Position numbers and translations under genes: made by a program. This document shows, in pieces, positions 2,572 to 4,337 of a stretch of DNA of 64,000 nt (its first letter is position 1; the number at the start of each line of letters is the position of its first letter). Under the pieces are notes generated by a model, which searched no databases, had not been told where the DNA came from, and saw only the letters and a list, made by a program, of their open reading frames with translations. The stretch lies in the NCBI RefSeq assembly GCF_014203835.1, contig NZ_JACHJW010000001.1:4724501-4788500 (forward strand), read 5' to 3'. Source of the stretch: Micromonospora polyrhachis. GTDB taxonomy: Bacteria > Actinomycetota > Actinomycetes > Mycobacteriales > Micromonosporaceae.

Positions 2572-2652
2572 CCCGCCCGAGCCGACGTGAGGCCAGGGCC
2601 CGCCCGAGCTGAGGTGAGGCCAGGGCCCGCCCGAGCTGACGTCAGGCCAGGG
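2572..2652. repeat. 27-bp tandem repeat x3 across the aroG stop codon
   Basis: Three consecutive 27-bp units (2572-2598, 2599-2625, 2626-2652) share the core CCCGCCCGAGCTGA..GGCCAGGG with 2-4 differences. The third copy contains the last codons and stop of DAHP synthase (stop at 2642), so the array runs from the coding region into the 3' flank. Confidence 0.9.
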
Positions 2653-3736
2653 TCTGGCCGACCGCCCGCCGGGCTCGTCGGGCGCGTACGGCGTCGGCCA
2701 GCTTCGTCAGCACACCTTCCGTCTGGTCCCAGCTCAGGCAGGCATCAGTGACCGACTGTCCGTAGACCAGTTCCCGGGTCGGGTCCAGCTCCTGCCGGCC
2801 GGCCACCAGGAACGACTCCAGCATCACTCCCACGATTCCGCGCTGGCCGGCGGCCAACTGGTCGGCGACATCGGCCACCACCAGGGGCTGCCGCCGGTGG
2901 TCCTTGCCGCTGTTGTCGTGGCTCGCGTCGATCACCAGCCGCTCGGGTAGGCCCGCCTCCCGGAGCAGCCGCAGTGCGTCGGCCACCGCCGCCGCGTCGT
3001 AGTTGGGCCCGCCCCGGCCGCCGCGCAGCACGACGTGGCCATCGGTGTTGCCCCGGGTGTGCATGATCGCCGGTGCGCCGGAGACGTCGATGCCCGGGAA
3101 GACGTGTGGCACGCTGGCCGCCCGGATCGCGTCCACGGCGGTGGCGACGTTCCCGTCCGACCGGTTCTTCATCCCGATCGGCATCGACAGGCCGGAGGCC
3201 AACTGGCGGTGGACCTGACTCTCCACCGTACGGGCACCAATCGCCCCCCAGGCGACCGTGTCGGCGATGTACTGCGGGGTGATCGGGTCGAGGAACTCGC
3301 AACCGACGTGCAGCCCCATCCGTAGCACCTCGACCAGGAGCGACCGGGCGGTACGCAGGCCGGTGTTGACGTCGCCCGACCCGTCCAGCGCCGGATCGTT
3401 GATCAGGCCCTTCCAACCGACCGTCGAGCGGGGCTTCTCGAAGTAGACCCGCATCACGACCAGCAGGTCGTCGGCGAGACGCCCGGCGATGTCCCGGAGC
3501 CGGGCGGCGTAGTCCAGCGCCGCCGCCGGGTCGTGCACCGAGCACGGCCCGACGACGACGAGCAGCCGGTCGTCGGCCCGGTCCAACACGCGGGTCACCG
3601 CCTGTCGGCCCTCCACTACCGCCGAGACCAGCGTCTCGTCCAGGGGTAACTCGTGGCGTAACAGTGCCGGGGTGGTCAGCGGCACGATCTTGTCGATGCG
3701 CTGGTCGCTGATGCGTCCCGTACCGGTGATTGTCAT
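2642..3736 (-). CDS. aroG: 3-deoxy-7-phosphoheptulonate (DAHP) synthase, class I
   Basis: The product condenses phosphoenolpyruvate with erythrose 4-phosphate, the first step of aromatic amino-acid synthesis in the cytosol. The 364-residue length and motifs fit the AroF/G/H (type I-alpha) family: VVGPCSVHDP near residue 63, YFEKPRSTVGWKGLINDP, GCEFLDPITPQY, GMKNRSDG, DASHDNSGKDH and the late GVMLESFL segment, together carrying the metal- and PEP-binding Cys, His, Glu and Asp residues. The ATG follows a 5' leader of about 190 nt that encodes a short peptide with Tyr-Arg-Trp-Phe and ends in a terminator, so expression is very probably controlled by attenuation. The stop codon lies inside a 27-bp tandem repeat. 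The paralog name (aroF, aroG or aroH) cannot be decided; aroG is used as a generic symbol. Confidence 0.95.
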   Translation of the reverse strand: MTITGTGRISDQRIDKIVPLTTPALLRHELPLDETLVSAVVEGRQAVTRVLDRADDRLLVVVGPCSVHDPAAALDYAARLRDIAGRLADDLLVVMRVYFEKPRSTVGWKGLINDPALDGSGDVNTGLRTARSLLVEVLRMGLHVGCEFLDPITPQYIADTVAWGAIGARTVESQVHRQLASGLSMPIGMKNRSDGNVATAVDAIRAASVPHVFPGIDVSGAPAIMHTRGNTDGHVVLRGGRGGPNYDAAAVADALRLLREAGLPERLVIDASHDNSGKDHRRQPLVVADVADQLAAGQRGIVGVMLESFLVAGRQELDPTRELVYGQSVTDACLSWDQTEGVLTKLADAVRARRARRAVGQTLA

Positions 3737-3806
3737 GCTCTGGAATCCTCCCGCCGACAGCCTCGGTGCCGGCGTGCCCGAGGTCGAGCCGGCTGCTCAC
3801 GAACGC

Positions 3807-3834
3807 AAAAAGGCAGGGACGAATGTCCCTGCCT
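3807..3834 (-). terminator. Attenuator terminator in the aroG leader
   Basis: On the - strand a perfect 10-bp stem (AGGCAGGGAC with GTCCCTGCCT) closes a 4-nt loop and is followed directly by five U residues. It lies between the leader peptide and the aroG start, in the correct orientation to stop aroG transcription. Just 5' of it, GCCGGCTG can pair with CAGCCGGC inside the leader peptide sequence, giving a candidate alternative structure. Confidence 0.8.
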
Positions 3835-3861
3835 CAGCCGGCTCTGGCGGATGTGGTGACG

Positions 3862-3927
3862 TCAGGTCATGGCTGAGTCACCGGCGCCCAGGGCCGGCTG
3901 ACTAAACCATCGATACGAGCACGTCAC
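3862..3927 (-). CDS. Aromatic leader peptide of aroG (21 aa)
   Basis: A GTG-started frame encodes 21 residues containing consecutive Tyr-Arg-Trp-Phe codons (TAT CGA TGG TTT) and stops 28 nt before the terminator stem. Such aromatic clusters in a short frame before an aromatic pathway gene are the classical mark of ribosome-mediated attenuation. An upstream in-frame ATG at 3939 would give 25 residues. The GTG is favoured because a -10-like TATGGT lies exactly 7 nt before it, the arrangement of leaderless starts elsewhere in this window, and no Shine-Dalgarno precedes either codon. Confidence 0.75.
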   Translation of the reverse strand: MTCSYRWFSQPALGAGDSAMT

Positions 3928-3934
3928 GTCGGCA

Positions 3935-3940
3935 ACCATA
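3935..3940 (-). promoter_or_regulatory. Candidate -10 element of the aroG leader transcript
   Basis: TATGGT on the - strand sits 7 nt before the leader-peptide GTG. No clear -35 hexamer at 16-18 bp was recognised. A leaderless transcript beginning at the leader peptide would follow if this is the promoter. Confidence 0.45.
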
Positions 3941-4028
3941 CCCGACCGGCGAGCACACGACGAAAGCCACCGCCGGCGTCGCCCGCGATTCGGCGTGGCG
4001 GAGCACCCGGTTGGGTAGGAGAGGACGC

Positions 4029-4337
4029 ATGACTACCGAGATCAATGATCAGCAGCGAGTCGAGTCCCGAGCGGAACACCTGCTCCCCGAGGAGCGGGCG
4101 GCGGGCAGTGAAGATCCGCTGGCCCAGGCCGAGGCCATCCTCGCCGACTCCGGCCAGCGGGAACAGGCCGACTCCGGCCAGCGGGAACAGGCCGACTCCG
4201 GCCAGCGGGAACAGGCCGACTCCGGCCAGTGGCAGTCGACCTCGACCAGTGTCGCCGAAGACGCCGCCGCGCCGGACACGATCATCGAGCGGCGTACGTC
4301 GGACGAGGCGACCGCCGTGATGGAACCGTCGGACTGA
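4029..4337 (+). CDS. Acidic repeat-containing hypothetical protein (102 aa)
   Basis: The ATG at 4029 has a good ribosome binding site (AGGAGAGGA, about 5 nt upstream); an in-frame ATG 18 nt earlier has none. The product is strongly hydrophilic and Gln/Glu/Asp rich, with no membrane segment, and its centre is made of nearly four copies of the octapeptide ADSGQREQ encoded by a 24-bp tandem repeat. It is probably disordered. It lies 113 bp before the M16 peptidase pair and is transcribed in the same direction. The function is unknown. Confidence 0.7.
   Translation: MTTEINDQQRVESRAEHLLPEERAAGSEDPLAQAEAILADSGQREQADSGQREQADSGQREQADSGQWQSTSTSVAEDAAAPDTIIERRTSDEATAVMEPSD
4143..4236 (+). repeat. 24-bp in-frame tandem repeat, 3.9 copies
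   Basis: Units at 4143-4166, 4167-4190 and 4191-4214 are identical; a degenerate fourth follows to about 4236. Each encodes ADSGQREQ in the 4029-4337 gene. Exact identity implies recent expansion. Confidence 0.95.

Follow-up and report, generated by a model that had tools for sequence, protein, structure and literature searches.

In the trp and pheA attenuators of E. coli, a translated leader with its own ribosome binding site carries control codons for one amino acid, a U-tailed terminator follows, and the antiterminator takes the 5' arm of that terminator. The described system closest to the one reported here is the aroR leader of C. glutamicum, a Phe-Tyr-Phe attenuator before aroF (Neshat et al. 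2014, as presented in PMC11802643 and PMC4046766). According to PMC11802643, transcription of aroF goes up under Phe limitation, while Tyr limitation has no effect even though the leader contains a Tyr codon. The trpL, leuL and ilvL leaders of S. lividans (PMC8079986) and the ilvB leader of C. diphtheriae (PMC5784534) have been reported to be leaderless, beginning at the transcription start and carrying control codons and, mostly, terminator hairpins. Each of them responds to a single amino acid or to the branched-chain amino acids as a group, and neither paper lists a leader before 3-deoxy-7-phosphoheptulonate (DAHP) synthase or chorismate mutase. A 2005 survey of actinobacterial leaders makes no mention of aroG, aroF or DAHP.

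We analysed a stretch of 64,000 nucleotides (the window) from the 7.15 Mb genome of a member of the Micromonosporaceae, Micromonospora polyrhachis, in which a candidate element of this kind precedes aroG (also aroF; 2642..3736), a gene for a type I DAHP synthase of 364 aa (NF009395, E 1.2e-150; TIGR00034, E 1.9e-143). All of its parts lie on the minus strand. A −10 promoter box, TATGGT (3935..3940), stands 7 nt upstream of a leader frame of 21 sense codons, VTCSYRWFSQPALGAGDSAMT (3862..3927), which runs from a GTG at 3927 to a TGA ending at 3862, lacks a Shine-Dalgarno sequence and is probably leaderless. The codons TAT CGA TGG TTT (Tyr-Arg-Trp-Phe; 3904..3915) were assigned as control codons from the sequence and its conservation. 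Three nt past the last aromatic codon, at 3900, begins segment A1, CAGCCGGC (3890..3900), which pairs with segment B, GCCGGCTG (3835..3845). The loop between them holds a hairpin, GGTGAC..GTCACC (3855..3882), which contains the leader stop codon and was identified from the fold, the alignment pairs and a partner-specificity z of −5.7 (A2:SH3). Segment B ends at 3835, exactly where the stem of an intrinsic terminator starts (3807..3835). This terminator comprises a hairpin of 11 pairs, GAGGCAGGGAC-ATTC-GTCCCTGCCTT (3835-3810), followed by TTTTT down to 3807, and it was the sole terminator-like site that the scan returned between 3600 and 4100. Further downstream are segment D, CAGCCGGCTC (3786..3795), which is complementary to B and is transcribed only once the polymerase is past the terminator, and a Shine-Dalgarno-like GGCGGGAGG (3747..3755) for aroG. 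The 184-nt leader folds better than dinucleotide shuffles (z −4.33), with none of 200 shuffles as good. An in-frame ATG at 3939 would give a longer frame, and we rejected it as the leader start because it overlaps the −10 box and differs from the conserved start. Direct reading of the sequence agreed with an earlier sequence-only reading in its description and coordinates of the leader, the segments and the terminator.

The element very probably belongs to the aroR family, since Corynebacterium leaders in our collection (e.g. MFVQRFYFGGAPGLQ and MRNWRFYFEWGSGR) share its architecture, C. glutamicum aroR itself being represented here by the published descriptions. As in aroR, adjacent aromatic codons stand in an attenuator-like leader before a type I DAHP synthase, with a leaderless start predicted from the spacing of box and start codon. 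The Corynebacterium leaders have the same box-start spacing, the same A1:B pairing with the stop codon in its loop, and the same abutting terminator as the window leader. The window leader differs from the published aroR in adding Trp to the codons that would be read, in the order Tyr-Arg-Trp-Phe.

The sequence-only reading had proposed conservation of the leader frame, aromatic codons and hairpins as its check. Upstream of DAHP synthase genes we searched with a strict pattern: a −10 box, 6–8 nt, an RTG start (ATG or GTG) and a short frame in which six residues include three or more aromatics. Of 110 Micromonosporaceae loci, 90 carry this pattern ahead of the gene, as against none of 2200 Markov-shuffled versions, so it is not a product of chance. 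Among the 20 loci without it, eight have a leader that is visible by reading, mostly of the type Y-x-R-F (mainly Tyr and Phe), and the remaining 12 either are second copies of low identity or lack a clear leader, one of these being a broken gene. In this family the leader is conserved upstream of almost all primary aroG/aroF orthologs that we examined. The same leader stands before DAHP synthase genes in Mycobacterium, Tsukamurella, Williamsia, Dietzia, Nocardia, Rhodococcus, Amycolatopsis, Kribbella, Glycomyces, Streptomyces sp. 150FB and Corynebacterium, and a covariance model built from the Micromonosporaceae leaders (R1) found the element before DAHP synthase in other families. The proposed conservation therefore holds in Micromonosporaceae and beyond. 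The leader recurs across actinobacteria, and in the window its frame is predicted to read Tyr, Trp and Phe. In the host genome, we saw no leader upstream of the second type I DAHP synthase (G000:C1:6914573-6915586, one of the low-identity second copies, beside a carrier-protein gene) or the type II DAHP synthase (G000:C1:5468872-5470155), and found none at trpE.

The transcript is probably leaderless, because the promoter box stands at a near-constant distance from the start codon and a Shine-Dalgarno sequence is missing; this evidence is strong, if indirect. Taking the nearest in-frame ATG or GTG ahead of the aromatic cluster as the start, we found that TANNNT precedes it by 6–7 nt in 157 of 183 leaders and that no other single distance occurs in more than eight; these 183 had been gathered with a box-start spacing of 5–8 nt, and a broader scan that permitted 4–10 nt again gave 6–7 nt nearly everywhere. 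The distance stays constant though the length of the peptide before the aromatic cluster varies, position −1 is C in 95% of the 183 leaders, and a Shine-Dalgarno-like motif precedes the start in two of them and is missing in 181. The spacing pointed out in the window (TATGGT, 7 nt, GTG) is thus a conserved one. The earlier suggestion that this architecture in a leaderless transcript is the point of interest needs correcting, as Streptomyces and Corynebacterium commonly have attenuators of the leaderless kind (PMC8079986, PMC5784534). The principle is known, and the leaderless start is less special than it had seemed; what is of interest is that three amino acids would be read, that the codons match the branch of the pathway, and that the probable antiterminator abuts the terminator.

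The control codons are rare ones, TAT and TTT. In the aromatic clusters TTT outnumbers TTC by 191 to 41 and TAT outnumbers TAC by 182 to 6, whereas the DAHP synthase genes at the same loci have 19 TTT against 481 TTC and 7 TAT against 470 TAC. The order of the aromatic codons differs among leaders (YRWF, FYWF, WYWRF, YFWF and WRFYF), always in one frame and at the fixed box-start distance. Beyond the cluster, species differ in reading frame through single-base insertions and deletions, and overlapping stop codons keep the same place in the A1-B loop, which indicates that the codons are conserved and not a peptide product.

Leaders of a related kind precede chorismate mutase genes. In 20 Micromonosporaceae chorismate mutase genes, a box (CATACT or CATAAT) is followed after 6–7 nt by a frame with clusters such as YFYY and FYFYY, and the host genome carries both types, its chorismate mutase leader, VIEQVRAYFYYGSGSPAAVGRA, lying at about G000:C1:2213382 (L336). 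All 20 loci, L336 and 19 more, appear to be of the leaderless Tyr/Phe type, followed by a strong hairpin. Trp occurs in 109 of 116 Micromonosporaceae DAHP synthase leaders and in one of the 20 chorismate mutase leaders, a difference with a Fisher p of 1.6e-16 that is nominal, the sequences being related and not independent. In another family (f98), matches of the R1 model stand mostly before chorismate mutase genes, whose CM_2 domain was confirmed in Pfam; these leaders read Tyr and Phe, with Trp in one of 25 and there outside the cluster, compared with four of four f98 DAHP synthase leaders. Because chorismate mutase serves Phe and Tyr and not Trp, and nearly all of its leaders go without Trp, the codons follow the branch served by the enzyme. 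This distribution, with Trp codons present before DAHP synthase and nearly absent before chorismate mutase, supports the earlier view of an attenuator keyed to aromatic amino acids. The related idea that it senses the overall aromatic supply best suits the leaders that have kept Trp; some lineages read only Tyr and Phe, and about 17 of the 183 leaders have no Trp near the cluster. A classical antiterminator was considered for the Micromonosporaceae chorismate mutase leader and rejected, as the visible pairing is not partner-specific (z +1.0, 19 sequences). No paper plainly on actinobacterial chorismate mutase leaders turned up in the full-text literature searched, which leaves most subscription journals outside.

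The aroG-type leader before chorismate mutase was seen in f98 and, as second copies, in f100 (for the two families together, L310-L312, L314, L319, L321, L324, L325, L327, most of L337-L362, L333 and L334), and the f98 chorismate mutase is often fused with a degenerate DAHP synthase-like domain.

To evaluate the RNA pairings, we set the pairing energies of segments and their own partners against those obtained with partners from other species, a measure whose z values are inflated by relatedness. A1:B gave −28.8 with the own partner against −22.3 with foreign ones (z −24), and the terminator stem, which served as positive control, was equally strong (z −23.5); combinations not expected to pair spanned z −1.1 to +2.6. 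The B:D pairing reached z −11.4 over all U-tailed leaders, and A1:A2 reached −6.5 overall and 0.7 within the YRWF group. Compensatory changes in A1:B are found in Corynebacterium, with GGCUUCGGC:GCCGAAGCC at L289 and AAGGCUUGCGG:CCGCAAGCCUU at L293. The RNAalifold consensus for model R1 contains A1:A2 and the terminator rather than A1:B, but the core of the Micromonosporaceae alignment is nearly invariant and cannot decide between A1:A2 and A1:B. A U-tailed hairpin occupies the same position in 132 of 179 unique leaders. In all 132 of these, the stop codon lies past A1 and ahead of B, in a loop of about 40 nt, and in 127 of the 132 the gap between B and the terminator stem is −1 to 2 nt. The Rhodococcus, Nocardia and Pseudonocardiaceae types (L008, L010, L013, L018, L181 and relatives) have no U-tailed hairpin; in them B is the 5' arm of a B:D hairpin without a U run, so that A1:B and B:D are mutually exclusive.

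Base pairing that would compete with the terminator is not supported by this comparison. A base-paired antiterminator on the terminator 5' arm was rejected, because the same test gave no specific pairing of this arm with A1 (z −1.1), the codon region (−0.7) or the middle (−0.8). We likewise rejected a thermodynamic switch, since in equilibrium folding of the window leader the terminator keeps P ≥ 0.93 with the ribosome at Tyr, Trp, Phe or stop. The candidate alternative structure upstream of the terminator, A1:B, is conserved and so placed that the position of the ribosome should matter to it, but equilibrium folding leaves the terminator formed. Where the sequence-only reading had seen a competing pairing segment, the pairing holds up as partner-specific, but it adjoins the terminator and does not share its arm. 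The element differs in this respect from the classical trp-type attenuator of E. coli, in which the antiterminator shares the terminator arm; here A1:B only abuts it.

We consider it highly probable that the aroG leader acts by ribosome-read transcription attenuation through its aromatic codons. A short leader frame with end-product codons, whose translation is predicted, and an intrinsic terminator before the structural gene are both present, and together with their conservation they support the attenuator proposed earlier as to its kind. What sequence comparison shows is the predicted leader with its start and control codons, the A1:B pairing and the terminator, together with the distances between these parts; beside these we infer the leaderless RNA, the ribosome stalling, the direction of the switch and the disabling of the terminator by A1:B. 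RNA polymerase would start at the G of the leader GTG, and a ribosome would begin on the leaderless transcript. During a shortage of charged Tyr-, Trp- or Phe-tRNA, this ribosome would stall on TAT-CGA-TGG-TTT with its front edge beside A1, the long A1:B helix would form just ahead of terminator synthesis, and the polymerase would read through into aroG. When all three tRNAs are charged, the ribosome would reach the stop codon in the A1-B loop and separate A1 from B, leaving the U-tailed hairpin to end transcription. A1:B shares at most a base or two with the terminator, and this spacer-less helix may prevent the terminator hairpin from closing at its foot inside the RNA exit channel, so that a flush helix would do the blocking. 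We put the switch drawn in this exact form at about even odds. An antiterminator is the most likely role of A1:B, because starvation must open the gene, as is reported for C. glutamicum under Phe limitation (PMC11802643), and this role agrees with the leader types whose terminator-like hairpin, B:D, has B as one of its arms. The null result for Tyr limitation in C. glutamicum counts against this explanation, because Tyr stands in its leader. So do the terminator that stays formed in equilibrium folding, the lack of specific pairing with its 5' arm, the low P(A1:B) under a full footprint at the last Phe codon, and the leaders that have no Trp near the cluster.

The main rival assigns A1:B the reverse role: it would assist termination as one half of a two-hairpin terminator, and a ribosome held up at the aromatic codons would cover A1, break A1:B and let the polymerase pass. 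When a ribosome with its full footprint is placed at the last codon, Phe, it masks 5–8 of the 10 leading positions of A1 in most leaders, and P(A1:B) of the window leader falls to 0.10. In the free fold of that leader, A1:B is present alongside the terminator, and PMC8355165 puts forward clusters of neighbouring hairpins as terminators. We nevertheless regard this role as unlikely: a stall at Tyr leaves A1:B intact (P 1.00), the ribosome at the stop codon in the fed state sits in the loop too, the U-tailed hairpin should terminate by itself, and in the lineages without a U tail A1:B would block the sole terminator-like hairpin, B:D. The absence of a U run in the Rhodococcus-, Nocardia- and Pseudonocardiaceae-type leaders, together with the conservation of B:D past the terminator, would fit control at another level, that is, Rho-dependent termination, RNA stability or aroG translation (for example through B:D), with the hairpin acting as a strong pause site or partial terminator. 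Such control seems quite improbable to us in view of the U-tailed hairpin kept at the same place in most of the unique leaders, with a stem maintained by partner-specific changes.

Finally, the element could be a structured RNA without a translated leader (a T-box, a riboswitch or a protein site), with aromatic codons that arose by chance in an AU-rich linker; UAU and UUU would keep the region free of GC pairing, and the flanking segments are indeed conserved as RNA. This explanation is very hard to reconcile with the varied aromatic codon orders kept in one frame at a fixed distance from the box and with the Trp codons that track the pathway branch. Rfam gave no match at gathering score at seven sampled loci and three chorismate mutase loci, and no relevant family in the window, and a T-box riboswitch was rejected, as none matched in 3300-4300 at E up to 10 or at the other loci at gathering score. 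Ribosome-read attenuation with A1:B as the antiterminator remains the preferred reading.

Outside actinobacteria, 30 of 54 DAHP synthase loci (L024-L080, e.g. L042, L025 and L068) have short frames dense in Phe, Tyr and Trp codons, as counted in a scan that did not demand the box-start spacing; a scan that did scored many of these loci as having none. Such leaders, found in Burkholderia, Xanthomonas, Bradyrhizobium and others, mostly have a T run ahead of the gene. The proteobacterial ones (Burkholderia MSAKFYFYFFWHLKPLADREG, Xanthomonas SFYFWYYGF and Bradyrhizobium SYFWYFSY) resemble the window leader in having several aromatic codons and are unlike it in sequence. By eye, the Burkholderia leader has the classical layout, unlike the window, with GCUGGCGG past the codons complementary to the terminator arm CCGCCAGC.

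Seen together, these comparisons allow a tentative proposal, to which we give somewhat less than even credence: an actinobacteria-wide family of leaderless attenuators with a neighbouring-helix switch (a flush antiterminator), whose codons are tuned to the pathway branch, Tyr, Trp and Phe before DAHP synthase and Tyr and Phe before chorismate mutase. A single short RNA would then control the entry step of aromatic synthesis as an OR-gate for three tRNAs, and chorismate mutase in that genome would have a Tyr/Phe gate to match; the need for an attenuator to share a strand with its terminator would be challenged. The two enzymes also supply precursors for actinobacterial natural products, and codon-specific control in GC-rich antibiotic producers would become directly testable.

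Two repeats were observed in the neighborhood of aroG. A stretch of 30 bp close to the 3' end of the gene (2359-2388) has exact copies in about 10 other Micromonospora-like genomes, where it again lies near aroG and occurs in both orientations, and it resembles an interspersed repeat. Upstream of aroG, a small gene on the other strand contains a tandem repeat of QREQADSG units (4155-4235).
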